Part shown: positions 18,542 to 38,114 of the stretch, one piece after another
How positions within the stretch are numbered: position 1 is the stretch's first letter
How the letters are laid out: the number at the start of each line of letters is the position of its first letter
Assembly: GCF_008039575.1 (NCBI RefSeq)
Contig: NZ_VDUY01000002.1
Span: 434,001-498,000, forward strand
Source of the DNA: Zeimonas arvi
GTDB lineage: Bacteria; Pseudomonadota; Gammaproteobacteria; Burkholderiales; Burkholderiaceae_E
Direction: 5' to 3'
Length of the DNA: 64,000 bases
Notes under the pieces: generated by a model
Database searches by the model: none
What the model saw: only the letters and a program-made list of their open reading frames with translations
Told to the model about the DNA's origin: nothing
Translations under genes and position numbers: made by a program

Positions 18542-18558
18542 TGGTGCGCGGACCGGGA
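18542..18558. repeat. attL: 17-bp copy of tRNA-Leu 3' end
   Basis: Identical over 17 bp to 38,098-38,114; flanking bases differ on both sides. It lies 13 bp before the tesB start codon and carries only the CCA, acceptor stem and first T-arm bases, so it is not a tRNA gene. Confidence 0.85.
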
Positions 18559-18612
18559 ACCACAGATTACTGTTTATGGGGACTTCAAGGGTTTCGCAAA
18601 TTTTTCTGTCTA

Positions 18613-18634
18613 GATACCGTGAGTCATACCGTAG
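18613..18634. repeat. Left-end ATACCG motifs (candidate integrase arm sites)
   Basis: GATACCGT (18,613-18,620) and CATACCGTAG (18,625-18,634) match three copies of the same motif near the right end (37,911-37,963), all in one orientation. Paired clusters inside both attachment sites are what tyrosine integrases of the DUF4102 type use as arm-binding sites. The function is inferred. Confidence 0.5.
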
Positions 18635-18740
18635 ATGACGGCTAGCTAGGACCGCCTGAGTGGGCCACAGCCTCCAACAGCCCCCAATCCGAAGACTCCC
18701 GGTGCTAGGCTGACGAAACCACTCCAGCGGTCATTGCAAC

Positions 18741-19862
18741 ATGGAAATCACCCGCGCCGAGCTATACGATCGTATCTGGTCCACGCCCATGAGCAAGCTG
18801 GCACGCGAATTCGACATCTCGGACGTCGGACTTGCCAAGGTCTGCGCGAGCTACGGCATTCCGCGACCGCCGCGAGGATACTGGGCCAGAGCAGCCGCAG
18901 GGAAGGTTCCGCCTCGTCCGTCTCTACCGCCTTCGCGCTCGGAAATCGTCCAATTCAATCCGGAACAGCATCGTGCGCGGATGACCACTACCGACGCTGT
19001 TGCGCGGCCTGCCGAACCGATCCCAGTGCTCTTGCCGGACGACGCCTTGCCGCCCGTCGCAAGCGCGACCCTCGAACGCCTGCGCAAGACGAAGCCCTCC
19101 ACGGATGGGTTCGTTCGGTGCGAATCGCCGCGAGTCTTCACCTGTGAGCTCAGCACGGCGACAATCGAGCGCGCAAGCCGGATCCTCGGCGCCATCGAAC
19201 ACGCCCTTCCGGCCATCGGCGGCCGGCTGAAGAAATCCGACAAGACCCCCTGCATCGGCATCCTGGTCGGCGACGAGTGGATCGGCATCAGCATTGCGGA
19301 AGACTACCGACGCACCGAAACGGTCCTGCAGGATCCCAAGATCGCCTGGCTGAAGCAGCGCGAGTACAGCTACCACTTCACCGGCGCACTGCGCCTGACG
19401 ATCGCCGCCGAATTCAACGGCCGGAAGTCTTGGGGCGATGGCAAGCAGGCCCGCCTCGAGGAAAAGATCGACAGCATCGTCACGGGCCTGCTGGTCGCCT
19501 CAACGGGGATCGTCGAACTCCGACGGGAGCGCGAGGAGCAGCGCCGACAGTGGCAAGAGGAAGCGAGGATTGCGGAACTCGCCCGCGAACGGCAACGCCG
19601 TCGCCAGCACTTCCTGGACAATCTGCACGCAGAGGCGAACTCGTGGAGCACGCACCGCGAGATCCAGAAGTACGTCGATCACCTGCGGCAGCACCTGGGC
19701 TCGGCCGACGCGCTCCCGCCTGCCTGCCTCGAGTGGATCGAGCTGGCTGAAGAGCTTGCGAAGGCTGTAGACCCGACACCGAAGCGGCTGCAGCTGTTAC
19801 GCGAGGGAATCACTGGGTACAACTACGACATGCCCTTCGGTCGATCCGTGGGTGACGACTAG
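18741..19862 (+). CDS. Conserved hypothetical protein with helix-turn-helix-like N-terminus and coiled coil
   Basis: 373 residues. The N-terminus (ELYDRIWSTPMSKLAREFDISDVGLAKVC..., residues ~6-35) reads like a helix-turn-helix followed by the motif GIPRPPRGYWARAAAGK. Residues ~255-295 are Arg/Glu-rich and likely coiled coil. I recognise this as a type of unknown-function protein common in islands of proteobacteria, but cannot assign an activity. It is the first gene inside attL and reads inward. It ends in a CTAG shared with the ancestral end of the convergent ParB-like gene. Confidence 0.75.
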   Translation: MEITRAELYDRIWSTPMSKLAREFDISDVGLAKVCASYGIPRPPRGYWARAAAGKVPPRPSLPPSRSEIVQFNPEQHRARMTTTDAVARPAEPIPVLLPDDALPPVASATLERLRKTKPSTDGFVRCESPRVFTCELSTATIERASRILGAIEHALPAIGGRLKKSDKTPCIGILVGDEWIGISIAEDYRRTETVLQDPKIAWLKQREYSYHFTGALRLTIAAEFNGRKSWGDGKQARLEEKIDSIVTGLLVASTGIVELRREREEQRRQWQEEARIAELARERQRRRQHFLDNLHAEANSWSTHREIQKYVDHLRQHLGSADALPPACLEWIELAEELAKAVDPTPKRLQLLREGITGYNYDMPFGRSVGDD

Positions 19863-19863
19863 T

Positions 19864-20475
19864 CTAGGTCCGCCCAGCTGAAGGGCCGCTTGACGACGAC
19901 TGGCACCTGCGAGAAACCGAGCGCGCGACCGAAAGGTGGAATCGGCGAAACCCGTCGTGCACCTCGTAGCGGTAGGGTGCCGCGATGCCGTTCGGAACAT
20001 GCACCTCGATGGGCGGGAGCGGCTCGCCACGTTGGATGGCGGTCAGGATGCTTGCCGCACGCTCCGGGTCGATGCCCCTGACTCTCGGGTTCCGGGCCGG
20101 CGGCTTCACCTCCGAAGGCGGGACGACGACGCAGACGCCGTCAGGGACCGGCACCCATACATAGGGCTCCAGCAAGGGCACGAACCGCTCCATGTTGGCC
20201 GCGGCAATCGCTGCGCGAATCTCATCGACCAACAGCAAGCGTCTCCTTTCCCCGCCCAATGGCGCCGTGAGACCGAATCCGCCGTCTGTGCGGCCACCGA
20301 CCGCCGTGAGGAAGTCCGACTCGATCTCGACGTCGAGCGCGGCGCGAGCGACGCCGGTCGCACCGTGGGCATCGAGGCACGCGGGCGGCTTCACCTGGTC
20401 AGGTCGATCGCGCCTCACCCCTCCTCCGAATCGGAAGTTCCTCCCATCCGGAAAGGGCGTCAGCCGAACCTGCAT
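19864..20475 (-). CDS. ParB/sulfiredoxin-fold protein with frameshifted C-terminus
   Basis: 203 residues as it stands; ATG at 20,475 with AAGG 5 nt upstream. The C-terminal third has the ParB-like pattern GEPLPPIEVHV then YEVHDGFRRFHLSVA. After SVA the frame turns into an unlikely Ser/Arg tail. Shifting frame by one base at ~19,920-19,926, in a GCGCGC run, continues as LGFSQVPVVVK, the usual next strand of this fold, and stops at 19,859-19,861. So the present ORF probably reflects a 1-nt deletion or a sequencing error. It overlaps the RES toxin gene by 77 bp. Its role is unknown. Confidence 0.6.
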   Translation of the reverse strand: MQVRLTPFPDGRNFRFGGGVRRDRPDQVKPPACLDAHGATGVARAALDVEIESDFLTAVGGRTDGGFGLTAPLGGERRRLLLVDEIRAAIAAANMERFVPLLEPYVWVPVPDGVCVVVPPSEVKPPARNPRVRGIDPERAASILTAIQRGEPLPPIEVHVPNGIAAPYRYEVHDGFRRFHLSVARSVSRRCQSSSSGPSAGRT

Positions 20476-21400
20476 CCAACCTTGTGTGCCGGACTTCTGA
20501 CGGAGCCGGGTTGGCGAGTTCGATGAAGGATCCGGAATCGATGAGGTCGGGGAAGACTGCTACGCACCGCCCTCCCCCCTTGGTCGAACGAAAGAGAATT
20601 GCCTCATAGCCTGCCGCACGAACGAGCTCGGCGACCACATGGCTGGGGGCTGGCAAGCCGAATTGGACCGGCAGCGTTCTCCAGTTGGCGAAGACGGCGT
20701 TGTAGAGCATCTGCCCCGTGTTGACCATCTTCAGCGCTCCATCCGGAATCCTGAGCTTCTTCTTCAACTCCCTGGCACGCGTTGGCATCTTGATGCGCCC
20801 CAGGACGCCAGCCAGATCTCTGAGCGACTCAGGACTCGTCATGTCGAAGACGCGATGCAGGCAGACGGTCACCACCACCTTGGCGTAGCTCTCCGGGCGT
20901 GCCAGGGCAAGGTCCTCAGGCCTCAATCCGTTCGCCAGGGTCGCAGACGCGACCTGGAACTTCTCGCGAAACGCTGTCTCGTCGTCCTCGGCGAGGTAGA
21001 GGCATGGCCATGCGTCGAGGGTGCCGAGATCGAGGTCTGCGCCGGCGTTGAAGCGGCCGCCATAGGCAAGCAGGCTGCCCGCCGCCGACAGCGGACTGAA
21101 GCTGTACTGGTAGGTAACGAACCGGACCCAATTCGACTCGTCTAGGCAGATCGGCTCGGCCTTCTCTATCGCGCCGATCAACTGCGGACGGAGTCGGCGC
21201 TGCTCTGGCTGCGTCCCGAAGAAGAGCGACGCGTTCAGTTCATCCAGGTCCTGCGAGACCTCCGTCCACCGCGAAAGCGTCGCCTCGCTAAATCGCTCGA
21301 GCTCGATGACCCCGATCGGCCCACGTAGGCCGCCCGGACCGCGCTGCGGGATGATCGGCTTCCGCCTAGCCACCCGCGGCACTCTCCACGCCCGGGGCAT
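20399..21400 (-). CDS. RES-domain toxin of a type II toxin-antitoxin system
   Basis: Up to 333 residues. The RES signature is present: Arg in YGGRFNAG (~residue 116), Glu in ETAFREKF about 25 residues later, and Ser in ILFRSTKGGG with following VAVFPD. Characterised RES toxins degrade NAD+ or modify partner proteins. It lies directly after the Xre/DUF2384-type antitoxin. Starts at ATG 21,400, GTG 21,382 and GTG 21,373 are possible; the last has GGAG about 9 nt upstream and overlaps the antitoxin stop by 8 nt. The protein is longer than most RES proteins, with extra residues at both ends. Confidence 0.82.
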   Translation of the reverse strand: MPRAWRVPRVARRKPIIPQRGPGGLRGPIGVIELERFSEATLSRWTEVSQDLDELNASLFFGTQPEQRRLRPQLIGAIEKAEPICLDESNWVRFVTYQYSFSPLSAAGSLLAYGGRFNAGADLDLGTLDAWPCLYLAEDDETAFREKFQVASATLANGLRPEDLALARPESYAKVVVTVCLHRVFDMTSPESLRDLAGVLGRIKMPTRARELKKKLRIPDGALKMVNTGQMLYNAVFANWRTLPVQFGLPAPSHVVAELVRAAGYEAILFRSTKGGGRCVAVFPDLIDSGSFIELANPAPSEVRHTRLDAGSADALSGWEELPIRRRGEARST

Positions 21401-21809
21401 GCGGGGACGACTGCTCGTGCCGGGACGCCGCTGCGCGCTCCGTCATCGCATTGATGATGAATTTGCGAAGGCGCTCATACCTTCCGAGCCTGATCATGTC
21501 CTTTGGCGAGATATCGCCCAGCAACGGATTGCGGGTCCGAAACCACGCGAGCGTCTTCTCGGTGTCGCCGTCGAACGCCCTCGCCACCAGGTTGATGGTG
21601 TTGGCGATCTCTTCGAGCCTCTCCCGTACCTGGGCGGGAATTGCGTCGTCGTACCTCACCGAGCTGGCCGAAACCGAGGCAAGACGCGACACGTCCGCCT
21701 TCTTGAGATCCAGAACTTCGGGAACTCGCCTGGGATTGAAGGCGGATCCGCGTCCGAAATCCATGTAGTCGTCGGCCACCGATTCGAATAGCCCGATACC
21801 CGGAGACAT
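21366..21809 (-). CDS. Xre/MbcA/ParS-type antitoxin (DUF2384)
   Basis: 147 residues from ATG 21,809, chosen because AAGGAG lies 7 nt upstream. The C-terminal segment TINLVARAFDGDTEKTLAWFRTRNP, LLGDISPKDMIRLGRYERLRKF is the antitoxin toxin-binding domain. The N-terminal part contains a likely helix-turn-helix. It is transcribed before the RES toxin with overlapping ends. Three GTGGTTCA-like repeats upstream are a likely autoregulatory operator. Confidence 0.82.
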   Translation of the reverse strand: MSPGIGLFESVADDYMDFGRGSAFNPRRVPEVLDLKKADVSRLASVSASSVRYDDAIPAQVRERLEEIANTINLVARAFDGDTEKTLAWFRTRNPLLGDISPKDMIRLGRYERLRKFIINAMTERAAASRHEQSSPHAPGVESAAGG

Positions 21810-21857
21810 GGCGCCTCTCCTTTCTGTCTGCATGGTTTCGGTCGTGGGCGCGCCTAT

Positions 21858-21889
21858 TGAACCACGCATGAACCACTTTTTGACCACGC
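21858..21889 (-). promoter_or_regulatory. Three tandem TGAACCAC-type repeats upstream of the RES/Xre pair
   Basis: TGAACCAC at 21,858, TGAACCAC at 21,869 and TGACCACGC at 21,881 repeat at 11-12 bp, about one helical turn, 49-80 bp upstream of the antitoxin start. Toxin-antitoxin operons of this class repress themselves through such sites. The 247-bp gap to the next gene holds no ORF I can support. Confidence 0.45.
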
Positions 21890-22056
21890 TTTTTACATCG
21901 AACGAGCAAGCATACCGTACTGTCCTGCATCGCGCACCCGGGTCCATCTACTCCGTGCACGACACCACAGCGCCGCCCCCGTCACCCGTTGCCCCCGCCC
22001 CGCCGGCGCCACATTCGTTCGCGACCGACCGGCGACCGAAGCCCTGCAACAGGAAC

Positions 22057-22284
22057 TCAGAGGGCCTTCTTCCTCGGCAGAACCTCCGGTAGGCGGAGCT
22101 GCGGCCGTCGGGCAGGCGCAAGGGATCCGACGTGGCCGAGGGCGACCTCGACCGCGACGCGCAGCACCACCAGCGAGCCGTCGGGGCGCACCTTGTGCGG
22201 AATGCCAAGGGCCTCCAGCACACGTCGCTGAGCGGAGCAGCGCACTTTCGCGGTCAGGGCTACCAGGTCATCGGGGGTCAGCAC
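22057..22284 (-). CDS. DUF4224-like small phage protein
   Basis: 75 residues: LTPDDLVALTAKVRCSAQ, then LEALGIPHKVRPDGSLVVLR. This matches my memory of DUF4224, a short basic family common next to phage integration and replication genes; it resembles a small excisionase-like DNA-binding fold. It lies alone between two toxin-antitoxin units. Confidence 0.7.
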   Translation of the reverse strand: MLTPDDLVALTAKVRCSAQRRVLEALGIPHKVRPDGSLVVLRVAVEVALGHVGSLAPARRPQLRLPEVLPRKKAL

Positions 22285-22316: not shown

Positions 22317-22730
22317 CTATCGGTGCGGCTGAAGGTTAAACCTGCCGTGAGCACCGTACTTCCACGGCACCTCGATCAAGCTCGCGGACACCATATCGGC
22401 CTGCTGCAGGATTCGCGGCCACCAGCGCACAATGCAGTGAGTCTTGGTCCAGTAGTCGTGGCTATTCCACGCCTTGTTCAGCCGGAACACGTTCAACCCT
22501 GACAACCGAAGCGCAGCGCGCTCGAGGTCACCCTTGCCGAACCGATCCTGAGACAGGATGCACCAGCCCCGTTCGCGTCCGAGCGCGTCGATCCATTCGT
22601 GATCCGGGGTGTTGGCCGCAAATTTCGACCTGAGGGCAACGACCTCAGGACACGGCACTTCGTTCTTCGACAACTCGGTCAGCGCGACCGCCCACACCGG
22701 CGGCAGGTTGTTGTCGATCAGGAACTTCAA
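22317..22730 (-). CDS. DUF5615/PIN-like toxin
   Basis: 137 residues. MKFLIDNNLPPVWAVAL at the N-terminus, TPDHEWIDALGRERGWCILSQD in the middle and the spacing of the acidic residues (Asp6, Asp45 area, Asp58 area) resemble PIN-like nuclease toxins that cut RNA. It overlaps the upstream antitoxin gene by 4 nt (ATGA), so translation is coupled. Confidence 0.75.
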   Translation of the reverse strand: MKFLIDNNLPPVWAVALTELSKNEVPCPEVVALRSKFAANTPDHEWIDALGRERGWCILSQDRFGKGDLERAALRLSGLNVFRLNKAWNSHDYWTKTHCIVRWWPRILQQADMVSASLIEVPWKYGAHGRFNLQPHR

Positions 22731-23430: not shown

Positions 23431-23532
23431 GCGGGCATCCATCCCCTTGACCCCCCCGCCACACCAGCGCACAATCTCCCCGCGTCCGAGCTTTCGGGCG
23501 TGCAGGCTTGGCGGCCTGCGGAAGAGGCGGAC

Positions 23533-23555
23533 AACCGCCGACATGGCGGTTTTTT
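23533..23555 (+). terminator. Intrinsic terminator/attenuator upstream of C4-like RNA
   Basis: AACCGCC, loop GACAT, GGCGGTT, then four more T. A perfect 7-bp stem with a T run directly before the C4-like RNA; in related prophages a similar hairpin precedes the C4 region. Confidence 0.6.
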
Positions 23556-23587
23556 CACGTCCGCAGCACTGGCTTCGCTCCTATGGG

Positions 23588-23685
23588 CGGGCCGGTGGGG
23601 AGACCCGCAAGGGTCTGCCGGCCTCTTCCCGGTCCGCCAACCCTGCCGGTCTGCCCACCACGCTTGGCGGCGTGGTGTGCGGTAC
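23588..23685 (+). ncRNA. C4 / P4-CI-type antisense RNA (candidate)
   Basis: The stretch has a hairpin AGACCC-GCAA-GGGTCT enclosed by GCCGG/CCGGC, a single-stranded GTCCGCCAACCCTGCCGGTCTG segment in between, and a second hairpin CACCACGC-TTGGC-GCGTGGTG. This order, and the CCAACCCTG segment, match my memory of C4 antisense RNAs of phages P1/P7 and many prophages. Those RNAs pair with the leader of the downstream operon to control immunity. A four-gene cassette follows 28 bp later. Exact ends are estimates. A covariance-model search against the C4 family would settle it. Confidence 0.55.
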
Positions 23686-24598: not shown

Positions 24599-24963
24599 AC
24601 AATCACCACAACGACCACACCGAGCTCGACGCGCTTCGGGAAGACCTGATCCGCCAGCAGGTCGCCATCCAGACCTGGCTGCCCGACCTTGAGGTCAGCG
24701 CGCAGCTCGTACTGAACGCACTCGACCACGCGCAGCCTCGACAATCACCCGGGCGGCGCTCTGCCGCCCAGACTCCTAGTTGCAGTCGCGCCCCGCTGAT
24801 AACCTATCGTGACCGGTCGCCGACCCGGAGAACCGCTTGCCTCAAGGTGCCGCGTCGACCGTCCGACTTCAATCCATGGCGGACGAACAGTTGGTGTGCT
24901 TTGCCCGCTACAAGCAAGATTGGATTCAAATGTCATTCGCCGACGTCACCATTGTCCCCATAG
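24595..24963 (+). CDS. Hypothetical protein, probably 3'-truncated at a recombination junction
   Basis: GTG start overlapping the previous stop. The first ~52 codons have the G+C-rich third positions of the neighbours (ELDALREDLIRQQVAIQTWL). After ~24,755 the codon usage and composition change and the frame runs on by chance into the next gene. A hairpin at 24,751-24,769 marks the change. The original C-terminus was probably replaced by the insertion that brought the next gene. Confidence 0.45.
   Translation: MNNHHNDHTELDALREDLIRQQVAIQTWLPDLEVSAQLVLNALDHAQPRQSPGRRSAAQTPSCSRAPLITYRDRSPTRRTACLKVPRRPSDFNPWRTNSWCALPATSKIGFKCHSPTSPLSP
24751..24769. other. Perfect hairpin at compositional junction
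   Basis: GGGCGGC, loop GCTCT, GCCGCCC. It lies where base composition falls from island-typical to A+T-richer. No T run follows, so it is not a classical terminator; it may be a recombination or stop signal. Confidence 0.35.
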
Positions 24964-25565
24964 GCGTGAAGGATCTTGTGATTACCTTCGCCGCTTTGAT
25001 CGGAGCGTGGGTCGCCGTGCAAGGACTGAGCACATGGAAGCGCCAGCTCAGGGGCAGCGTCGAGTACGAACTGACCCGCCGTCTGCTACGGACGACGTAT
25101 CGCTGGCGCGAGTCGGTCAAAGCGGTTCGGAGCCCGATGGTTTGGGCCCAGGAAATGCCGGCGCCTTCGGACGAAGACAGAAAATCTATGTCTGAAGCTG
25201 AAATTCAGCACTACGGCTACGCCATGGCGTATCAGCGAAGGTGGGATAAGGTCGTCGACGCGCGGGATGCACTTCAAACCGAGCTGCTCGAGGCCGAGGT
25301 TCTGTGGGGCAAGCAGGTTCTCGACATCTTTAGCACCGCCTTTGAACTACAGCGGGAACTCTACGTCTACATCTACACTTGTCTCGAAAGCGAAAATCCT
25401 AGGACGCGTCCTGGGATGCGCGAGGCCAAAGAGCGAGTGTTGGAGAAGCGACGCAATGTGATGTACGACTCCTCCACGCCTGGCGAGGAGGACGAATTCT
25501 CGCGTGACCTTTCGACGGCAATTGCGGCGATCGAGTCTTTCCTTAAACCTCACTTGAGAAAGTAG
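24930..25565 (+). CDS. Single-pass membrane protein of unknown function (cargo)
   Basis: 211 residues from ATG 24,930; the frame could start earlier at ATG 24,876 or at TTG 24,837, which has GGAG 7 nt upstream. Residues ~14-30 (DLVITFAALIGAWVAVQGL) form one membrane helix, followed by STWKRQLRGSVEYELTRRLLRTTYRWRESV, a conserved-looking amphipathic segment, and a long cytoplasmic helical domain. Similar small membrane proteins occur singly in genomic islands. Codon usage is A+T-richer than its neighbours, a sign of separate transfer. Confidence 0.65.
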   Translation: MSFADVTIVPIGVKDLVITFAALIGAWVAVQGLSTWKRQLRGSVEYELTRRLLRTTYRWRESVKAVRSPMVWAQEMPAPSDEDRKSMSEAEIQHYGYAMAYQRRWDKVVDARDALQTELLEAEVLWGKQVLDIFSTAFELQRELYVYIYTCLESENPRTRPGMREAKERVLEKRRNVMYDSSTPGEEDEFSRDLSTAIAAIESFLKPHLRK

Positions 25566-26694: not shown

Positions 26695-27324
26695 TTATTT
26701 CCCCGGTCCGACATTGCCCTTCACCTTGGCCAGCAGCGCGGCGAGCTTCGCGGTCGATCCATCCTCGACCTGCACCGGCCCGCCCTCGGCACCCGTAACC
26801 TCGGTCGTCACCCTGTCCCCGTAGACCTTGGGCAGCAGCTTGCTTACCAGCCGCTTGCGGGCTTCTACCCGCAGGCGGGAGCGCGCAATGACGTCGTGAT
26901 CGATGCGCCTGTTGCCGTTCTCATCGACGTAGGTGTCGTTGCTACCGTCGTCGGCGATCGTGACCAACTCCTCGACCAATAGCTCGGCCCGAATCTCGCG
27001 CGCACGCGCGTAGGCCTTCGCGAACGCCTCGTCCCTCCCGAGCTCCGTGAACACCCAATAGACCTGCGGCATCCCCTCGTCCCGCATGATCGCTGTCAGC
27101 GTCCGGCCGGCGGCAATCTCGGCGCAGATGCGGTCCTTGTGCGCCTGGCCATAGATCGGCGGGCGGCCCGTCTTCCTTGGGACCGACTTCGTTGCGGCGC
27201 GCTTCTGCTCAGCCGCCGGGGGGGTGTGCTGTTTTTTCATGGTGGCAAAGATGTCCCCTGTTTCCCGGCCGGTCCCCGTGCGGGAGCCTTCGTCAATCGG
27301 CCGCTGTTCATCTGACGAGATCAC
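26695..27324 (-). CDS. Phage terminase small subunit, Sf6-type
   Basis: 209 residues from a GTG that overlaps the upstream stop (GTGA); ATG 27,240 is the alternative. The DNA-binding region ICAEIAAGRTLTAIMRDEGMPQ, then ARAREIRAELLVEELVTIADD and the acidic DDGSNDTYVDENG segment are typical of this small terminase family. These proteins recognise the packaging site and recruit the large terminase. No large terminase gene is in the island. Its family differs from the second small terminase at 28,929. Confidence 0.82.
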   Translation of the reverse strand: MISSDEQRPIDEGSRTGTGRETGDIFATMKKQHTPPAAEQKRAATKSVPRKTGRPPIYGQAHKDRICAEIAAGRTLTAIMRDEGMPQVYWVFTELGRDEAFAKAYARAREIRAELLVEELVTIADDGSNDTYVDENGNRRIDHDVIARSRLRVEARKRLVSKLLPKVYGDRVTTEVTGAEGGPVQVEDGSTAKLAALLAKVKGNVGPGK

Positions 27325-28925: not shown

Positions 28926-28928
28926 AGA

Positions 28929-30274: not shown

Positions 30275-30311
30275 CACGATCTCCCTGTTGCGGGCATTGG
30301 CGCGCGGTGAA

Positions 30312-30530
30312 TCAGGCGGCAGCCGCCGCCAGTTGTTTGGCCTCGACCCGACGTTCGGCGTCGGTCAACAGCAGCTCGACCTCGACCAGAAGTGCCGACT
30401 CGCCACGCACGTACTCGGCAAGCCAGCGAACCTCGGCCTCGTTGTAGAAGCCCGCGCGGCGCAGGACATTCGCTCGGCGGCCGATTTCGGCGATGCGGCG
30501 CTCGCGGGCGCCCGGGTGTGCTTCTTCCAT
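30312..30530 (-). CDS. Small hypothetical protein
   Basis: 72 residues from ATG 30,530 with GGAG 10 nt upstream. ERRIAEIGRRANVLRRAGFYNEAEVRWLAEY is helical and charged. First gene after a terminator, so it may start the packaging transcript. Not recognised. Confidence 0.5.
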   Translation of the reverse strand: MEEAHPGARERRIAEIGRRANVLRRAGFYNEAEVRWLAEYVRGESALLVEVELLLTDAERRVEAKQLAAAAA

Positions 30531-30555
30531 ATGCTTCGTTCTCCAGTCTTCGGGA

Positions 30556-30592
30556 GCAAAAAGCCCCCCTACCCCACGCGGGGCGGAGGCTT
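30556..30592 (-). terminator. Terminator after the replication operon
   Basis: On the minus strand AGCCTCCGCCCC pairs (with small bulges) with GGGGTAGGGGGGCT and is followed by TTTTT. It lies 207 bp after the primase stop and separates replication from packaging genes. The gap 30,593-30,798 holds no gene I can support. Confidence 0.6.
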
Positions 30593-30798
30593 CGGTCGCT
30601 TTTCCGCTCGCTTCCCCGGCAGCTCCCACGCCAGGTATCCCCGCCCGAGCGGCACCGACTCCTGTCGGCCAGCCAACGGCGCCGGAATCCCTGGAATTGC
30701 ACCTGCGGGTCCGGTTCCGATACGACGCCTCGGGATCGGCTGTGTTCTGCTCCGAGCGGCCCATGCAGGCCCACTGCTTGCGGCGCGGAGTGCCGTGT

Positions 30799-31719
30799 CT
30801 AGGTCTGGTCGACGACCTCCTCGCGCCTCACGCGCGCGATCGCAGCACACAAGGGGATCAACCCGGCCGCGGCGTGCCAGTCATTCGCATCCCAGCCGAC
30901 GGTGGGCGCAAAGCAGTAGGGGCGTCCTGTCCGCTTGGCCGCCGCCTCGCCCGTGCCGGACGCGTCGTTGTCGGCAAAAACGAAGACGCGCCCCCGGATC
31001 ATCTCGGCAACGTGAATGAGATTGGCCGCACTGAAAGTCACGAGCACGGCCGCATTGATGTGCATCTGGCGAAGTGCGGCCAATACCGACAGACCGGTCG
31101 CATAGCCCTCGACCAGCCAGGTCTCGTCAGCCGCTGACGGGCCGAGCCGAAAGACAGCGCCCTTGGCACGCATGCCAGCGATCATTTCCTTTACCCATCG
31201 CCGCTCCGCCGAGTCCCACCAAATCAGCTGAGCGCCGAGCAACGCGTTCCGCTCGAGCCCTCGCATGGGAACGAAGAGAACGTCCTCACTGGTCAACTCC
31301 GCGAAGCCGGTCACGAGGCGCTTCGTGCGCGTGTACTGCCGGAGCACGAGGCCTCGCTCCCTCGGGAAGCCCTTCAGGCGGAAGTAGCCGTGGAAGTCGG
31401 CCTCGCAGCGCTTCAGCAGTTCGGCAGCGGTGGCCGCCGCACGCTCCTGCCTGCGCCGGGTGCGCTCGGCTTCCTCCGCGCGCTGACGTGCCCGTTCGCG
31501 CAACGCCTGACCAGACGGAGGCCTCGCATGTGGATCGTCGTACCAGTGAACTTCACCATCACCGTCCCAGGCCTGCACCCATCCCCGCTGACCGTCCCAG
31601 AGATAAGCACCGTTGTCGGATCTCGGGTGCGCCAACGTCGGGCAGCGGTGGATCCGGCCATCGGGATTTAGGCGCCGAATGTCGACGCCGTGCGCACGGG
31701 CAAAGTTCTCGAAGCTCAT
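30799..31719 (-). CDS. Toprim-domain DNA primase-like protein
   Basis: 306 residues from ATG 31,719. N-terminal RCPTLAHPRSDNGAYLWDG resembles the start of phage/plasmid primases but lacks a full CHC2 zinc finger. Residues ~75-110 are a charged helix. Residues ~205-285 form a Toprim domain with the Glu of WLVEGYATG and the acidic triad VFVFADNDASG. It probably makes primers for island replication. Start and helicase stop overlap (ATGA). No ATPase domain is fused; the separate helicase upstream may supply it. Confidence 0.83.
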   Translation of the reverse strand: MSFENFARAHGVDIRRLNPDGRIHRCPTLAHPRSDNGAYLWDGQRGWVQAWDGDGEVHWYDDPHARPPSGQALRERARQRAEEAERTRRRQERAAATAAELLKRCEADFHGYFRLKGFPRERGLVLRQYTRTKRLVTGFAELTSEDVLFVPMRGLERNALLGAQLIWWDSAERRWVKEMIAGMRAKGAVFRLGPSAADETWLVEGYATGLSVLAALRQMHINAAVLVTFSAANLIHVAEMIRGRVFVFADNDASGTGEAAAKRTGRPYCFAPTVGWDANDWHAAAGLIPLCAAIARVRREEVVDQT

Positions 31720-33254
31720 GCCGCCCGGTCCTTCTGACGTGCCTTGTTGTAGGCGATGTTCCTGGAGCGGATCAGGTTGAGGACATTGCGGGTGATCGGG
31801 ACGTTCGGGGTGCCTTCGAAGGACCAAGCCTGCGGTGGCCAGGTGCCGACGATGTCGCGGTAGAGATTCGACGCCCGGCCCTTCTGCCGATCGGGAGCCG
31901 AATGGGCACGCGCGTAGGTGGCGACCTGCTCCCACAGGTGCCGGCGGTCATCGGCTAGCTTCTTCTTGCCGATGGTGACCTCGCGCATCTCGCCGGGCTC
32001 ATGATCGACCAGCGACAGGCGGCCGCGCTCGTAGCCGCAGGCCATGCACCGCCGTCGGAACGGCGTGAAGCCGCACTTCGGGCAGCCCTTAGGCGCCTCG
32101 TCGGCGTCCTCGTCGCGGCGGATCGCCTTGTCGAGCTTCTCCCCGGCATCCAGGGCGTTGAGGCCCTCATGAAAAATGCGTTCGAAGTCCTCCGCGAAGC
32201 GAAGGATGTTCCCGCTGTGGTCTAGCAGGATGCAGTCGCGCTTTCCCGTCTCGGGCGACGAGCGCAGGCCGCGCCCCCACATCTGGATGGCTGTGCTCAG
32301 GCTCTTGCGCAGGGGCCGACAGTCGACGACGCAACCGACGTCCTGGACGTCGAACCCCTTGGCCAGGGCCTCGACAGAGATCAGCACGCGCAAGAGGGAG
32401 TCCGGCTTGCGGTACTCGGACAGCAGCTGCTCGCGTTCGGCTGGCGTGGTCTCGGCCGTGAACACTCCAGCCATCACGCCGGCATCGTTGAACTGACGGC
32501 AAAGCGCTTCACAGTGCGCGATCGTCGCGCCGAAGATGATCGTCTTCCTACCCTCGCCGAACCTGACCCATTCGGTCACGACGTCACCGATGATCTCCAT
32601 ACCGCGCTGCTCGGCGGCCTTCTCAGTCCATTCACCGTTTGCGGTCTCCGCGCCGGCCATGTCGGGGCGGGTGCAGCTGAATACGCGCATCGGGACCAGC
32701 ACGCCGGATTCGGTGAGCTCGGCCATCGTCACCGCGTTGACGATGCGGGTGAACAGGCGCCCGAGGCCTTTGCTGAACGGCGTGGCCGAGAGCCCAATGA
32801 CCGCCGCACGGCAGTGCGGAATGTGCTCCGTCCACGCCGCGAGCTGCGTGTGCACCTCATCGATCACGACAACGTCCGCCTCCGGCCAGGTGCGCCGGGC
32901 CAAGGTCTGCGCGCTGGCAATCTGGAACGGCATGTCCGGGCTGTATCGCCAGTGATTCGCCTGGATGACGCCATGCGCCGAAAGGCCGTAGCGGTCAGCG
33001 GCAGCCGAGGTCTGGTCGATCAAAGTCGTGCGGTCGCAGACGAACACAGCACGCTTGCCCCGGCGCAGCGCTTCGTGGATCACCCGCAACCCAAGGTAGG
33101 TCTTTCCCGCACCAGTGGGAGCCATGACCAGCTGACAGCGGTGCCCATCGCGGGCGCCCTGGCGCAGCTTCTCGTGAGCGGCCGCCTGGAAGGGCCGGGG
33201 CTCGGGAAAGGTCGAGCTCTCGTACGTCGGGCGGTCGAGAAGATCGGCCTGCAT
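31716..33254 (-). CDS. SF2 DEAD/DEAH-box helicase
   Basis: 512 residues from ATG 33,254. Walker A is MAPTGAGKTYLG, motif II is VVVIDEVHT (DEVH), motif III GLSATPF, and the second RecA domain contains MWGRGLRSSPETGKRDC (motif VI-like). Near residue 395 there is a possible zinc ribbon, CPKCG...CMACG. This helicase type occurs in phage replication modules. It is coupled by 4-nt overlaps to the ParB-like gene before it and the primase after it. Confidence 0.87.
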   Translation of the reverse strand: MQADLLDRPTYESSTFPEPRPFQAAAHEKLRQGARDGHRCQLVMAPTGAGKTYLGLRVIHEALRRGKRAVFVCDRTTLIDQTSAAADRYGLSAHGVIQANHWRYSPDMPFQIASAQTLARRTWPEADVVVIDEVHTQLAAWTEHIPHCRAAVIGLSATPFSKGLGRLFTRIVNAVTMAELTESGVLVPMRVFSCTRPDMAGAETANGEWTEKAAEQRGMEIIGDVVTEWVRFGEGRKTIIFGATIAHCEALCRQFNDAGVMAGVFTAETTPAEREQLLSEYRKPDSLLRVLISVEALAKGFDVQDVGCVVDCRPLRKSLSTAIQMWGRGLRSSPETGKRDCILLDHSGNILRFAEDFERIFHEGLNALDAGEKLDKAIRRDEDADEAPKGCPKCGFTPFRRRCMACGYERGRLSLVDHEPGEMREVTIGKKKLADDRRHLWEQVATYARAHSAPDRQKGRASNLYRDIVGTWPPQAWSFEGTPNVPITRNVLNLIRSRNIAYNKARQKDRAA

Positions 33255-34171
33255 CACACCCTCGCCTTCTCGATGCGCTCGAGCTTCAGGCGCCACGAGC
33301 GCGCCAGGCGCTTGGCCTCGGCGGCCTCGTTCATCAGGCCCGCCTGGCGCTCACGCAGCACGCGAACCTCGGCCTGCAGCTGGTGAATCTGGCGGCGCGC
33401 CTCGGCCATTTGGTCGCTTGCGTCGACGAGCTTCGAAAGGCTCTCGATCTTGTCCTGGGCTTCTTCCAACATCACCGTCTGCTCGGCCAGGACCTCGCGC
33501 AGCTCCGCCAGTTCAGGGGCGGAGGCGGACGCCTCCTGCGGCTTGCTGCCGGGCTCGGCGTGATCGCCGGTGGAATCCGGGCCCCCTGCCTGGCCGGCGC
33601 TCGATTCCTCGGGCGGGGTCGCTGCAGTGGAATCCGATTCCAGTGACGGGGTGGAGTCGGACTCCAGTGACGGGGTGGAATCCGATTCCACCTTGTTGGC
33701 GGCCGACCTGTTCCTGGCCTCCTGCTGGCGCTGGGCAACCTCCGGCCGGCGCAGTGCTGCGACCATCGGATGACCGACGGCACAGGCTTCGGCAATCTGG
33801 CGATCGGACCACTTAGACCACTCGGCGTCCGCCAGCAGCGTCAGGACTGCTTTGCGCTTGTCCTCATTAGTTCGGCGCAGCCCGTGGGCCGCGTTCGCGC
33901 CGACCGACCAGAGCACGGCGTCACGCAGCGTGCCCTGCCGGACATCGGCCATCAGCGTGAGGGCGCCGATTTTTCGGTGGGCGAAAAGCCGGTGAAACCC
34001 GTCGACAAGCCAATGGTCGGATCCGTCGTGAAAGACGGTCACCGGGGGCAGCTCGCCGCCGGCAGTGAGCACCTCCGCGTACTCGTCGACCGTGGCCTGG
34101 TTGAACGCGGCTCGGGGCTGCGTACCGCCGTCGATGCGGATCGCGGCGATCTTGAGCTGCTGCGCCGTCAC
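33254..34171 (-). CDS. ParB-like DNA-binding protein with internal repeat and coiled coil
   Basis: 305 residues from GTG 34,171, chosen for GGAGGTG 5 nt upstream. Residues ~10-85 are a ParB/Srx domain: GGELPPVTVFHDGSDHWLVDGFHRLFAHR. A helix-turn-helix-like segment follows (WSDRQIAEACAVGHPMVAAL). Residues ~155-180 contain the repeat SLESDSTP, encoded by three spaced DNA palindromes. The last ~85 residues are coiled coil. It probably binds island DNA for replication or partition. It lies inside the coupled alpA-to-primase operon. Confidence 0.82.
   Translation of the reverse strand: MTAQQLKIAAIRIDGGTQPRAAFNQATVDEYAEVLTAGGELPPVTVFHDGSDHWLVDGFHRLFAHRKIGALTLMADVRQGTLRDAVLWSVGANAAHGLRRTNEDKRKAVLTLLADAEWSKWSDRQIAEACAVGHPMVAALRRPEVAQRQQEARNRSAANKVESDSTPSLESDSTPSLESDSTAATPPEESSAGQAGGPDSTGDHAEPGSKPQEASASAPELAELREVLAEQTVMLEEAQDKIESLSKLVDASDQMAEARRQIHQLQAEVRVLRERQAGLMNEAAEAKRLARSWRLKLERIEKARV
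33628..33690. repeat. Three 15-bp palindromes at 24-bp period inside the parB-like gene
   Basis: TGGAATCCGATTCCA at 33,628-33,642 and 33,676-33,690, and TGGAGTCGGACTCCA at 33,652-33,666. The middle copy differs at two arm positions that change together, preserving the palindrome, and all differences are silent in the protein. Regular palindromes in a ParB-like gene could be its own binding array (parS- or iteron-like). Confidence 0.6.
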
Positions 34172-34317
34172 GGGCACCTCCGCGACGCGCGCTCGTACTG
34201 AAGCGCCCACCACGCCAGCGACACCGACCGCCAGCGGATCGCGCGGCGGGCGAAGCCCAAGAGCAGGCCGGCGAGCGCGACGCTATTGCGGGCAGCCCCG
34301 GTCACTAGGCCAGTCAT
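34168..34317 (-). CDS. 49-residue ORF coupled between alpA and the ParB-like gene
   Basis: ATG at 34,317 overlaps the alpA stop (ATGA); its own TGA overlaps the parB-like GTG (GTGA). The peptide begins MTGLVTGAARNSVALAGLL and ends in Trp/Arg-rich sequence; it has one short hydrophobic stretch (~residues 13-22) and strong positive charge. No family is recognised. The exact fit of both overlaps in an operon where every junction is a 4-nt overlap is the main support. Confidence 0.5.
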   Translation of the reverse strand: MTGLVTGAARNSVALAGLLLGFARRAIRWRSVSLAWWALQYERASRRCP

Positions 34318-34640
34318 GCGGACACCGCGGCGGCGGCATTGGAACGCTTGCGGCCGCGAGCTGCGACGGGCGCCGCCTCTGCGCCCCCGGTGTCCTCGAT
34401 GTGCTGCTCGGCCGCACGCTTGGGGTCAGTGGCGGCCGCACCCGCAGAGGCCACGGTCACGCGCGGCCTAGACGCGATCCACTCGTGAAGCTCGCTCTCA
34501 AGGAACCCGACCGACCTCGCGCTGAGCTGGATCGCCTTCGGGAACGTCCTGCTGCTACGCCGAAGGTCATCCAGGCTCGACACGGCCAACCCTAAGATCT
34601 TTGCCGCTTCTGGCTTCCGAAGTATCCGCATGGCTTCCAT
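34314..34640 (-). CDS. AlpA-family transcriptional regulator
   Basis: 108 residues from ATG 34,640; a second ATG is at 34,631. The N-terminal ~60 residues (MRILRKPEAAKILGLAVSSL, then FPKAIQLSARSVGFLESELHEWIASR) are the AlpA/MerR-like winged helix. The C-terminal ~45 residues are Ala-rich and disordered. In PICIs and P4 relatives AlpA switches on excision and replication genes, which fits its place at the head of the coupled replication operon. Confidence 0.85.
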   Translation of the reverse strand: MEAMRILRKPEAAKILGLAVSSLDDLRRSSRTFPKAIQLSARSVGFLESELHEWIASRPRVTVASAGAAATDPKRAAEQHIEDTGGAEAAPVAARGRKRSNAAAAVSA

Positions 34641-34681
34641 CTCTCTCGGCAGTCCTTGCCTGACGAAAGGAGACCATGCGA

Positions 34682-34758
34682 AACCCACCCAAGCGCAACC
34701 CACCCAACCCCCCCAAGTTTTGGGGTGGTTTCTTGGGGTGGTTTCTTGGGGTGGTTTT
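34682..34758. repeat. Iteron-like repeats upstream of alpA
   Basis: TTGGGGTGGTTTC occurs three times in tandem at exact 13-bp period (34,720, 34,733, 34,746; last base differs). On the other side two AACCCACCCAA(G/C) copies (34,682 and 34,697) are similar in the inverse orientation. Position before the replication operon suggests an operator or replication origin. The strand asymmetry is strong (G/T on plus). A 63-codon plus-strand ORF with a good Shine-Dalgarno also crosses it, so coding cannot be excluded. Confidence 0.5.
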
Positions 34759-34789: not shown

Positions 34790-35551
34790 CTACTCGGGCG
34801 AGCGATCCATGATCAGACGGTCACGACGCAGGCGATCCCAGGCGTGCTGGAACACCTTGCCGGCTGACGGAAAGAGGGATGCGTGGTGCTCCTCGACGAA
34901 GCGCTTCACCTGAGCACGAACACCTCCGCCTCGGCCGCCACGACTGGGGGGAAGTCGAAGCGGGTCGTGCTCCAGCGCCCGGATCGCAGCGAGGATGGCC
35001 GCATCTTGCGACTCTGCGCGGCTCCGCGGCTTGTTGGGAATCGCTGGCAGATCGTCTTGCCCGGCCCCCTCAGCGTCTGGCTGCTCCGCCACCTCGGCAG
35101 GCTCCACGCACTGCTCGGCCACAGGCTGCTTTTCTGTCGACGCGCGCTCAGGAGGGCTCACCGCAGTCGCGATGCCCCAGGGATCGGCGAGCGTAACCAC
35201 GTCGTCTAAGCGAACGAGCGCGCCGAGGAGCTCGACATCGTTAAGAGATGAAAGGTGCGAAGGAAGTGCTACGCCCGTGCGCGGGTTGTATAGCTTCAAA
35301 TCACCCCGCCGAACGGCCAGCCTGATCGCTTTTCCGGCGTCTCGCTCGGCCAGCACCTGTTCCACCGAAACCCTGGGAGGATCCGCCTTCAATGGGCCGC
35401 TGTCAGGTGGAACAGAATTCGCTGGCTCGGGCAGCTGCATCACGGCCCGTCTATGCGCGGCGTAGAAGTCGATGGCGTCCAGAACGGACACGAAGCCATC
35501 GACTGGTACTCGCGCCTTCGGCGGCCCGCCGCCGCCTCGCTGATCCTGCAT
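34790..35551 (-). CDS. Hypothetical island protein
   Basis: 253 residues from ATG 35,551 (AAGGG 6 nt upstream). Middle part SVEQVLAERDAGKAIRLAVRRGDLKLYNPRTG looks like a DNA-binding-type helix pair; residues ~135-175 are acidic and disordered; the C-terminus VRAQVKRFVEEHHASLFPSA, then FQHAWDRLRRDRLIM is basic helical. Such proteins are frequent near AlpA in islands, but I do not know the function. Confidence 0.6.
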   Translation of the reverse strand: MQDQRGGGGPPKARVPVDGFVSVLDAIDFYAAHRRAVMQLPEPANSVPPDSGPLKADPPRVSVEQVLAERDAGKAIRLAVRRGDLKLYNPRTGVALPSHLSSLNDVELLGALVRLDDVVTLADPWGIATAVSPPERASTEKQPVAEQCVEPAEVAEQPDAEGAGQDDLPAIPNKPRSRAESQDAAILAAIRALEHDPLRLPPSRGGRGGGVRAQVKRFVEEHHASLFPSAGKVFQHAWDRLRRDRLIMDRSPE

Positions 35552-35681
35552 GCGCACCCCTTCTCGGTGCCCTTCAAGGAGAACCCCCGGCAGCGAGTGA
35601 AGGTGACTCGTGTTCAGCTGGCCGGCCTAGCCGGGGGCAGTCCAGTCTATCGCGCTAAGTGCAGCACAGGTGCAGCGCGCC

Positions 35682-36515
35682 TCAGGTTTCCTCCGGTTCA
35701 CTGAGCATCGAAGATCCTCCGTCATCTGCGGGAGAAACCGCCTCCGACGGCTGCACAGCCGGCTCCTCTAGCAACGGGCCGTACTCCTGCTCCCACCGTG
35801 CGCAGAGCGGCTTGGAGACCTCGAGCAGGTAAGCGCCGAACTCCTGGATCCCTTTCGGCCTCCGACTGAGGTCGCGCGACGGAAGAATGCGCGAGAACGC
35901 GAGCGCAGCACGGACAAGTAGATGCGCGTTCGGCGCGGAAAACATGACGAATCGATTCTCAACGCCGACATGAAACTGCGGATGCATGATGGGCTCGGAG
36001 AACGATGCTCCCGGGTGCACCGCCTGGTCGCGAAATCGGTAGACCTCCTTCAGTACCGAACGCAGGTTCGTCGTCCCCTGCTTCCTGAGCCCAAAGGATC
36101 GCCGCAGCTGCTCGGCGACCACCATGTACCGAGTGCGCCGCTTCTTCGGGTTTCCTGTCGGCTTCGGACGCGGCGGAGGGTCTCGATCGATAGTCGCGGC
36201 ATAGAGTGCCTCGAAGAAGGTCGCGGCGGCGACGGTCGCCTGCATCGCCGCCTTGAACTCCCGATCGAGAGCCTCGCCGAACTCCCGATTTCCGGATCCA
36301 ACCGAAGCGGTATGCGCCTCGTCGAGGCGATCAACCGCAATCTCAAGCCAATGGATGCAAGTGTCGAGCTGCAGCTCGACACTCCGGACTTCCATTGCCT
36401 GCGGACCCTTCGGACCGAGAGAGAGCACCAAGCCGCCCGCGGGAATGCGAAGTCGGACTCCACGCGAAACATGAATTCCTCCGGCCGCCGTCGGCGTCTT
36501 CGGCGGGCTGCTCAT
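35682..36515 (-). CDS. Putative HEPN-like protein coupled to the integrase
   Basis: 277 residues; ATG overlaps the integrase stop by 4 nt. Helical throughout (~40-110 and 130-260). Residues 162-167 read R-D-Q-A-V-H, matching the R-x4-H signature of HEPN RNases, inside LKEVYRFRDQAVHPGAS. The N-terminal helix bundle with CIHWLEIAVDRLDEAH is compatible with HEPN. HEPN proteins are often RNases of toxin or defence systems. Assignment is by motif only. The C-terminal ~30 residues are disordered. Confidence 0.55.
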   Translation of the reverse strand: MSSPPKTPTAAGGIHVSRGVRLRIPAGGLVLSLGPKGPQAMEVRSVELQLDTCIHWLEIAVDRLDEAHTASVGSGNREFGEALDREFKAAMQATVAAATFFEALYAATIDRDPPPRPKPTGNPKKRRTRYMVVAEQLRRSFGLRKQGTTNLRSVLKEVYRFRDQAVHPGASFSEPIMHPQFHVGVENRFVMFSAPNAHLLVRAALAFSRILPSRDLSRRPKGIQEFGAYLLEVSKPLCARWEQEYGPLLEEPAVQPSEAVSPADDGGSSMLSEPEET

Positions 36516-37897
36516 ACTGTCCGCACCAGCGGCACCACCTTGCCCGCCTGGGATCCGTCGAGGATGTCCGCGTATGCCTGCAGCATGATCCGGCGCTGCG
36601 GCAGGTACTCGGCCTTGTTGTACGCCCGCTCCTGCTGCTCGTCCGATTTCTCGTGGGCCAGCTGCGCGTGGACGACATCCCCGGGGAAGCCAGCTTCGCG
36701 CAGGATGGTCATGGCCAGGTGCCGAAACCCATGGCCAGTCTGGCGCCCTTTGTAACCCAGGTCGTCGAGGGCGTACAGCATCGTGTTCTCGCTCATGAAT
36801 GCGCCCAGCTTCCGGCTGTGCGGGAACACCCGCTCGTCATCTAGGCGCAGAGCCTTGAGCTCACGCAGCACCTCGACCACTTGGCGGGAGAGCGGGACGA
36901 CGTGATCCTCGGCGGGGCGATCACCGCGTTGCTTCACCTTCATCCTGGCTGCCGGGACGGTCCAGGTCGGCGCGACGCCCTCGAGGTCGAACTCCTCCCA
37001 GCGCGAGAACCGCAACTCGCCAGTCCGCACGAACGTGTAGGCCATCACCAGCAGTGCCGCCCGGGTCACTGGCGACCCCTGGTAGCCTCGGATGGCACGC
37101 ATCAAGCCCGGCGCCTCGGCGGGCCGAACGTGCGGCAGGTTTCTCGGCGGATTGACCTTCTTCGCCGCGGCGATCCGCTTCGTAGTCTCGCGGTAGGTCG
37201 GCATCACGACATCTGCGGGTGCGTAGCCCTGCAGCACCGCGTAGTGCCAGATACCGGCGAGCCGCCGACGCACTTTGTTGGCAGTTTCGTGTTTCCCAGC
37301 AACGGCAAGGCGGTCGATCACGTCGACGATATCGGCGCTCGTGACGCTCGCGATACCCCTGCTCCCTATGTACGGGTAGACGTGATCGACCAGCGACTGA
37401 TGCAACTGCTGGACGGTCCGGGCGGCACGGCCGCGGCAGTGGATGTCCGCCCAAGTATTCCCGACACGCTCCACCGTCCAGTGATCCGCCAGGCGCTCCG
37501 CGCGCTTCACCTCCGCCGCAGCCTTGCGCGCTGCCCGCTCGGCCCGCGCCTTCGCGCGAACGGCGGCGGCTCCTTCCCGGACGCGGGCGGCCTCGAGCGC
37601 CTTAGCGTCAGCCGGCCGGATGCCCTGTCGGAGCAGCTCGCGACAGCGGTCGCGCTCGAGGCGAGCGCCCGCCAGCGACATCGTCCCGCGAGTACCGCCG
37701 GCATGCTGGTACACGCCTAAGGCCACGGTACCGCGCTTGCCGTCAAGCTGGTAGTCAAAGCGCCAGAGCCGCGACCCGTTCGGGTTGACCAGAAGGTAGA
37801 GCCCGGCGCCATCGCTGGCCTTGTAGGGCTTGTCCCTGGAGGCCAGGGCCCGTACCGCCTTGTCCGTGAGCTTCACCGTGCCTGTCCGTCCACTCAT
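36512..37897 (-). CDS. int: Tyrosine integrase, P4/DUF4102 type
   Basis: 461 residues. N-terminal DUF4102 arm-binding domain (KLTDKAVRALASRDKPYKAS..., residues ~8-105), charged linker (~105-140), core-binding domain (~140-245) and catalytic domain. Catalytic residues: R291 in VRTGELR, H389 and R392 in GHGFRHLAMT, H415 in LAHEKSD and nucleophile Y426 in AYNKAEYL. It reads away from the tRNA-Leu attachment site, the usual geometry. It would integrate the island at the tRNA 3' end. Confidence 0.95.
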   Translation of the reverse strand: MSGRTGTVKLTDKAVRALASRDKPYKASDGAGLYLLVNPNGSRLWRFDYQLDGKRGTVALGVYQHAGGTRGTMSLAGARLERDRCRELLRQGIRPADAKALEAARVREGAAAVRAKARAERAARKAAAEVKRAERLADHWTVERVGNTWADIHCRGRAARTVQQLHQSLVDHVYPYIGSRGIASVTSADIVDVIDRLAVAGKHETANKVRRRLAGIWHYAVLQGYAPADVVMPTYRETTKRIAAAKKVNPPRNLPHVRPAEAPGLMRAIRGYQGSPVTRAALLVMAYTFVRTGELRFSRWEEFDLEGVAPTWTVPAARMKVKQRGDRPAEDHVVPLSRQVVEVLRELKALRLDDERVFPHSRKLGAFMSENTMLYALDDLGYKGRQTGHGFRHLAMTILREAGFPGDVVHAQLAHEKSDEQQERAYNKAEYLPQRRIMLQAYADILDGSQAGKVVPLVRTV

Positions 37898-37910
37898 ATT
37901 CTGTGCCCGA

Positions 37911-37963
37911 GATACCGTAGGAGGGCACTTTATCGGCGAGATACCGAGGTCTGATACCGTAGG
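37911..37963. repeat. Right-end GATACCG motifs (candidate integrase arm sites)
   Basis: GATACCGTAG (37,911), GATACCGAGG (37,940) and GATACCGTAGG (37,953) lie between the int start and attR, in the same orientation as two copies at the left end. One further internal copy, CATACCGTA, is at 21,912. Confidence 0.5.
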
Positions 37964-38052
37964 TTAAGTCCGGCTGTCCCTGCGACTTCTCGTGATTCCT
38001 CGGCAGAATCCTATCCTGTAAAGGATTGATTCACAATGGGATCTTGAAACAG

Positions 38053-38075
38053 AAAAACCCCTTATCGGGGCTTTT
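38053..38075 (-). terminator. Terminator between tRNA-Leu and the integrase
   Basis: On the minus strand CCCC, loop GATAA, GGGG, TTTTT, 23-45 nt after the tRNA 3' end. It belongs to the island side of attR and would stop tRNA transcription before int. Confidence 0.6.
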
Positions 38076-38097
38076 CGGTGATCTTCGGTGTTCAAAG

Positions 38098-38114
38098 TGG
38101 TGCGCGGACCGGGA
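38098..38114. repeat. attR: 17-bp repeat in tRNA-Leu 3' end
   Basis: TGGTGCGCGGACCGGGA, identical to 18,542-18,558. It covers the CCA, the 3' acceptor strand and the start of the T arm. Confidence 0.85.

Follow-up and report, generated by a model that had tools for sequence, protein, structure and literature searches.

A tRNA-Leu(UAA)-bounded island in Zeimonas arvi with two unrelated terminase small subunits, probably a phage satellite

Organization of the island

The window analyzed here is a 64,000-nucleotide stretch of Zeimonas arvi (NZ_VDUY01000002.1, positions 434,001 to 498,000), in which an island of 19.6 kb lies at a tRNA-Leu(UAA) gene. The island carries an integrase, an AlpA regulator, a replication module and two terminase small subunits (TerS1 and TerS2), and is probably a phage satellite. 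From the tRNA leftwards, the integrase, a 277-aa open reading frame (ORF), an int-alpA RNA, a 255-aa ORF, AlpA, a ParB-like protein, a superfamily 2 (SF2) helicase and a Toprim primase are all read in the same direction, followed leftwards by a 150-aa ORF, a 252-aa ORF, TerS1, a 355-aa ORF, a winged-helix-like ORF and TerS2. The segment after TerS2 reads rightwards and holds an isrK-like RNA (below threshold), a C4 antisense RNA and small ORFs. The integrase, AlpA, helicase, Toprim primase and both TerS proteins scored above the Pfam cut-offs and the C4 RNA above its gathering threshold, confirming the gene list of the initial annotation, which had been made from the sequence without database searches. 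The isrK-like RNA, putative integrase arm repeats and an excisionase-like ORF (22057-22284) were added to that list.

36512-37897, minus strand: tyrosine integrase (phrog_1, Arm-DNA-bind_3)
35570-35637, minus strand: int-alpA RNA (RF02996; 52.9 bits, above gathering)
34314-34703, minus strand: AlpA regulator/excisionase (PF05930, 46.4 bits; cut-off 21)
33254-34213, minus strand: ParB-like protein (phrog_1033; Pfam ParB_N below cut-off)
31716-33296, minus strand: SF2 helicase (ResIII/Helicase_C; phrog_16)
30799-31719, minus strand: Toprim primase (start taken from alignment A1)
28929-29522, minus strand: TerS1, SPP1/SF6 class (Terminase_2, 119.6 bits; phrog_51)
26695-27324, minus strand: TerS2, Shigella phage Sf6 gp1 class (PF20901, 116.7 bits)
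23579-23662, plus strand: C4 antisense RNA (RF01695; 59.5 bits, above gathering)
23482-23556, plus strand: isrK-like RNA, directly before C4 (28.7 bits, below gathering)

Borders and integration site

Both ARAGORN and Rfam placed the tRNA-Leu(UAA), with the anticodon TAA, on the minus strand at one end of the island. The 17-mer of its 3' end occurs in exactly two plus-strand copies in the window, starting at 18542 and 38098, so that the exact border repeat that had been claimed was found at both ends. By our own estimate, a chance 17-bp match over ~20 kb has a probability below 1e-4.

38098-38182, minus strand: tRNA-Leu(UAA), integration target, intact (ARAGORN, Rfam)
38098-38114: attachment core, tRNA side, 17 bp, exact repeat of the tRNA 3' end
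18542-18558: attachment core, far side, 17 bp, exact repeat, supported by the empty-site comparison
37911-37962, plus strand: putative integrase arm repeats, tRNA end, with GATACCGTAG exact at 37911 and 37953 and a diverged copy at 37940
18613-18634, plus strand: putative arm repeats, far end, two diverged copies of GATACCGTAG at 18613 and 18625

The proposed search for an empty site between tesB and the tRNA gene was successful in a genome of the same genus (G003), in which the tRNA is identical at 85/85 nt and the tesB start follows directly. The tesB gene of G003 is 93% identical to that of the window, where the tesB start lies beyond the far attachment (att) copy and is thus separated from the tRNA by the island. 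Because of the two 17-bp cores and this empty site, the mobile unit was taken to be ~19,556 bp. Matches to tesB were present in 4 of the 18 genomes of the genus, the window's own included, and the tRNA stood beside tesB in one of the three tesB-bearing relatives, namely G003; no tRNA was found near tesB in G016 (8.0 kb stretch) or G001 (4.7 kb stretch). The island had a G+C content of 65.7%, the window outside it one of 69.8%, and called ORFs covered 84% of the island.

The GATACCGTAG copies near the two ends may be integrase arm sites, a tentative reading since the pattern was chosen by eye; at up to 2 mismatches it matched 47 times window-wide (22.9 expected), many of these matches lying beyond the island.

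Integration and regulatory genes

We take the integrase to be of the P4 type. At E<=1e-60, relatives of it were found in 12 of the 348 other genomes; these 12 nearest relatives share 39-43% identity with it, and each adjoins a tRNA or tmRNA. A related integrase was also located at tRNA-Leu(UAA) in L245, with no match to a terminase large subunit (TerL) in the stretch examined.

Among the 15 loci searched for RNA families, the int-alpA RNA recurred in four (L172, L173, L224 and L302) and the C4 RNA in the viral contigs L040 and L046. The phrase "int-alpA RNA" gave no match in the literature search. The tandem of isrK-like and C4 RNAs (23482-23662) is presumably comparable to prophage antirepressor leaders. 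When a C4 target was sought in the 738 bases downstream, one 8-mer was the sole complementarity of at least 8 nt, about what chance would give by estimate.

Replication module

The ParB-helicase-primase order is also found in phages, namely Acidovorax phage AP1, MW202545 and viral contig L006, with an annotated TerL in AP1 and TerL and portal genes in L006. The AP1 primase is 49% identical to that of the island (alignment A1). AP1 and similar temperate phages, which share this block, are complete phages with TerL and portal, unlike the island, and by the models used the AP1 TerS belongs to neither class found here. We also considered whether TerS2 belongs to an AP1-like block; this was rejected because the AP1 TerS matches neither class model, and no AP1 ORF matches the 355-aa or 118-aa ORF (phmmer, E 0.01).

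An alignment scan with the primase over one genome per species (84,980 species) returned 19 loci with at most 51% identity in the best segment. TerL was detected by profile in the stretch examined in 3 of these 19 named loci (L122, L125 and L127). Head-gene-like ORFs were read by eye in several others, unconfirmed by any search. In the bacterial order, the window's genome included, the primase was present in 3 of 81 genomes; it had no plasmid match.

The Thauera locus L117 has the order integrase-AlpA-ParB-helicase-primase, interspersed with other ORFs, and no TerL match in the 10 kb downstream, where restriction-modification-like ORFs were read by eye. The Aromatoleum locus L126 resembles it without an AlpA match. 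The stretches examined of L117 and L126 are short and revealed neither att repeats nor far borders, and both loci are read as islands only tentatively.

The terminase small subunits TerS1 and TerS2

TerS1 and TerS2 belong to unrelated classes. BLAST between the two proteins aligned no more than 7 residues (best E 0.096). The profile of either class gave the protein of the other class a score below 4 bits. Sequence comparison gave the small terminases 3zqp, 4zc3 and 2cmp as solved relatives of TerS1. Its structural model had a mean predicted local distance difference test (pLDDT) score of 82.9, and the top fold match was 3zqq, which is the small terminase of an SPP1-like phage in full length. 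For TerS2, the PF20901 match spans the whole profile (1-106 of 106), and the protein aligns with Sf6 gp1 over residues 5-134 of 140. The TerS2 model was weaker (mean pLDDT 60.9, residues 1-54 below 50); all six of its fold matches at E<=0.001 were Sf6 gp1.

With a conserved column defined as one at least 80% identical among the other sequences, TerS1 agreed at 45 of 49 conserved columns (30 relatives) and TerS2 at 31 of 42 (10 relatives). Judged by these columns, TerS1 looks well kept and TerS2 more diverged.

In the bacterial order, TerS1 was found in 20 of 399 genomes (E<=1e-6) and TerS2 in 17 of 399, the window's genome being counted in both censuses. The loci in which a TerS exceeded 50 bits numbered 134, and none of them had both classes above that score. 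In the stretch examined, TerL was detected by profile in 106 of the 134 and not in the other 28, in a tally that includes partial window views, overlapping loci and short loci and that would miss a TerL outside the profiles used. A later scan gave 14 further TerS2 loci outside the 134, and TerL was present in 13 of them.

The closest relatives of TerS1 (57-58% identity) lie upstream of TerL in the viral contigs L009-L011. Small proteins with only the TerS2-type helix-turn-helix (HTH) adjoin TerS1-TerL in these contigs. An ORF near 10.9 kb of L009 was read as FtsK, suggesting a short element.

Search for virion genes and a helper

The 26 island ORFs gave no match to a structural or lysis family with Pfam, nor did the 23 of them that were also compared with PHROGs, in agreement with the initial annotation. 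For capsid, tail and lysis genes, this absence is that of the family scans only. For TerL and portal, remnants were additionally sought in six frames with seven TerL profiles, four TerL references and four portal references, which yielded only noise (ceiling of 8.1 bits for phmmer and 3.2 bits for the TerL profiles).

A large terminase was also sought elsewhere in the same genome, where three large-terminase models revealed nothing convincing; thus, no resident helper was found. The single phrog_2 match in the genome (25.6 bits) was treated as background because five named genomes matched similarly, each at 25-41 bits in frames of 680-920 aa. One of these five also has a 104-bit phrog_2 match, on a contig not overlapping L123. 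PF03237 and PF04466 gave no TerL match in the genome, with a limited reach, since among 14 control genomes they detected TerL in only 6 and 3, respectively (phrog_2, 11 of 14). As the assembly is 98.9% complete in 16 contigs, a helper may possibly lie on a missing or foreign element. A published satellite is described as not being mobilized at detectable frequency by any of the 17 prophages in its native strain (PMC11389934).

A second TerS1-like gene, at 96.3 kb of contig C9 of the same genome, was considered as a sign of a helper and rejected, since it lies in another integrase island (G000:C9, ~90.3-99.3 kb; L288 and L289). That island contains an integrase, an HTH protein, an oppositely oriented TerS1-class gene and large ORFs that had no Pfam match or were not scanned; neither a TerL match nor a far border was found before the contig end.

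Related loci

Loci with part of the same gene set and no TerL match in the stretch recur in the order. The combination of integrase, AlpA and TerS1 was found in L300, L302, L303, L306 and the viral contig L046, and that of AlpA and TerS2 in L214, from the same genus. Integrase and TerS without an AlpA-profile match occur together in L040, L164 and, in the window's own genome, L288. Viral contigs were also scanned with the integrase and the 252-aa and 355-aa ORFs, at a sensitivity confined to close relatives, and no closer relative emerged.

The viral contigs L040 (13.6 kb) and L046 (13.1 kb) both encode TerS1 and C4 RNA and have no TerL match. L040 also has a virion structural protein (phrog_684) and a primase of the VapE type, and L046 has a similar large ORF together with a tail-spike-like protein. 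These two contigs may be satellites carrying virion parts, or prophage fragments.

Other ORFs and cargo

The remaining ORFs of the leftward genes and those of the far half of the island are as follows.

35682-36515, minus strand: ORF, 277 aa, no family match
34790-35557, minus strand: ORF, 255 aa, no family match
30312-30764, minus strand: ORF, 150 aa, no match
29519-30277, minus strand: ORF, 252 aa, with a C-terminal domain common to small proteins, several of them in int-alpA islands
27726-28793, minus strand: Ala/Gly/Pro-rich ORF, 355 aa, weak codon-position signal
27321-27677, minus strand: winged-helix-like ORF, 118 aa, all matches below cut-off
24837-25565, plus strand: ORF, 242 aa
24233-24598, plus strand: ORF downstream of C4, 121 aa
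22727-23464, minus strand: HTH/DUF433 protein that may pair with the PIN protein
22317-22730, minus strand: PIN_10 domain protein
22057-22284, minus strand: DUF4224, excisionase-like ORF
21366-21947, minus strand: Xre/MbcA/ParS-type antitoxin candidate, matches below cut-off
20399-21400, minus strand: RES-domain toxin candidate
19864-20475, minus strand: ORF, 203 aa
18741-19862, plus strand: ORF, 373 aa, homologue (70 bits) in L303

The 252-aa ORF matched in 35 of the 399 genomes of the order, the window's counted, mostly through a C-terminal domain of ~45 residues, which L173, L174 and L224, among other int-alpA islands, also have. The DUF4224 ORF, 14 kb away from the integrase, may belong to the cargo or be left over from a second element. 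In L303, an AlpA/TerS locus, the homologue of the 373-aa far-end ORF (15367-16719) is likewise distant from the integrase match.

Comparison with known systems

Gram-negative phage-inducible chromosomal islands (PICIs) are described as carrying an integrase, an AlpA or MerR-type regulator, their own replication genes, accessory genes and, in some, terS, with a size of ~15 kb and without structural or lysis genes; they occupy att sites that prophages never use and are induced and packaged by a helper phage (PMC6092414). Like such PICIs (e.g., EcCICFT073), the island has an integrase with an att site, an AlpA regulator, replication genes of its own and accessory genes, and no structural or lytic genes were found. 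It differs in having an SF2 helicase, ParB and a separate Toprim primase instead of Pri-Rep, in its size of 19.6 kb and in its two TerS classes. Capsid, portal and TerL genes of its own, which a capsid-forming PICI would have, were not found in the island. Nor were the TerL, portal, capsid, tail and lysis genes of an intact prophage.

The satellite phiAH14b of Pseudomonas sp. ANT_H14 was reported in capsids of helper protein (PMC4936722) and is, of the elements so reported, the closest to the island. Its integrase (E 2e-63) and AlpA are homologous to those of the island. The genome (KU708005) has a putative 18-bp att sequence and, like the island, its own Toprim primase and helicase and no capsid genes. 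The replication proteins of the two are not similar (phmmer E 0.1). Unlike the island, phiAH14b has no reported terminase gene and encodes homologues of the helper's tail assembly protein and lipoprotein.

P4-like satellites are described by the components psu, delta, epsilon, alpha and sid (PMC8628076). The P4-like gene set proposed by the initial annotation held only in part, since no match to PF07455, PF04606, PF10554 or PF03288 (Psu, delta, epsilon and alpha) was found at E<=0.1 among the 26 ORFs and the replication genes are those common with whole phages. What the island shares with P4-like satellites is the integrase type and AlpA. It also has a C4-type RNA, which we take to be related to the P4 immunity RNA; unlike the P4-like arrangement, this RNA is on the opposite strand and not upstream of replication genes. 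By the components searched for at the sequence level, the island falls outside the P4 family.

In pac-type Staphylococcus aureus pathogenicity islands (SaPIs), the island's own TerS docks to the helper TerL (PMC5052747). As described, these SaPIs have one TerS each, an Stl-type repressor and Gram-positive hosts, whereas the present island has two TerS. Phage-inducible chromosomal minimalist islands (PICMIs), described by int, alpA, a DUF3987/DUF5906 primase and a fis site (PMC10803314), were not matched by the island, which has a Toprim primase and a tRNA site. No description of two-TerS satellites or of betaproteobacterial TerS satellites was found by titles and abstracts, in a search that covered a minority of subscription journals.

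Discussion

We regard the island as probably a satellite of phages, of the AlpA type and with a mode of action like that of Gram-negative PICIs. The bounded island and its empty site in a relative sustain the satellite part of the initial annotation, while "P4-like" applies to no more than the integrase type and AlpA. Whether its family is undescribed has two sides: the exact island was found once, but AlpA/TerS loci without a detected TerL recur in the order, and because integrase/AlpA/TerS loci of this sort recur, the kind of satellite is already known. The unusual traits are a replication module common with whole phages and the two TerS classes together.

Several observations weigh against a satellite. 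No second exact copy of the island was found, and the own genome offers no convincing TerL of a resident helper. In the related loci, AlpA is weak in L300, L302 and L303 (23-29 bits), the integrase match of L303 is weak (32 bits) and L046 has a tail-spike-like protein. TerS2 differs at 11 of the 42 conserved columns, some of them non-conservatively. L063 unites helicase, primase, a TerS1-class gene and TerL, with L006 and L125 as weaker cases, so that descent from a prophage is possible.

In that case, a temperate phage with the ParB-helicase-primase module would have shed TerL along with its structural and lysis genes, and it would be an accident that its genes for integration, replication and TerS survived. 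The whole phages AP1, MW202545 and L006 with their ParB-helicase-primase block, the TerL of the L122, L125 and L127 primase loci and the combination in L063 all agree with it. Against it stand the 84% ORF coverage, the exact att cores and the lack of TerL or portal fragments in the six-frame scans; AlpA and the int-alpA RNA are island-type regulators, and TerS2 comes from a second, unrelated class. We consider this origin improbable. It is very improbable that the locus is a chromosomal defence or cargo island whose TerS proteins act as decoys spoiling the packaging of invading phages: the PIN/DUF433 and RES/Xre toxin-antitoxin-like pairs would suit it as cargo, as would the lack of a helper in the own genome, but the island has full integration and replication modules, and PADLOC gave no match at E<=0.01 among 10 of its proteins. 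Within the satellite reading, one TerS might package while the other regulates by binding DNA or interferes with the helper's own TerS, a division of labour that is a real possibility, if short of an even chance. There are precedents in SaPI Ppi, described as interfering with the helper TerS (PMC5052747), and proteobacterial PICI Rpp, described as binding it (PMC10690885); in L009-L011, proteins related to the TerS2 N-terminus through the HTH only are neighbours of TerS1-TerL, and TerS2 is less conserved than TerS1. Against this division, TerS2 fills the whole of PF20901 and aligns with Sf6 gp1 well beyond the HTH.

If the island is a satellite, a helper phage would turn on AlpA, and AlpA and the integrase would excise the island at the 17-bp tRNA core, after which it would be replicated by the ParB-helicase-primase module. 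TerS1 and/or TerS2 would bind its DNA and dock this DNA to the large terminase of the helper. Helper capsids filled with island DNA would carry it to a new cell, where the integrase would reinsert it at tRNA-Leu. Induction, excision and packaging are proposed here from gene content.

The two TerS may serve two kinds of helper. In the form that TerS1 addresses large terminases of the SPP1/SF6 class and TerS2 those of the Sf6 class, so that one island rides two unrelated helper lineages, this idea is doubtful. If it were true, the island would be a generalist by virtue of two interchangeable keys. How satellites choose their helpers, and whether one satellite can use unrelated phages, are questions that a two-TerS island makes testable. 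The island joins the genes of AlpA/TerS islands to the replication module of whole phages, and the loci listed here indicate that islands with integrase, AlpA and TerS are found repeatedly in this bacterial order.

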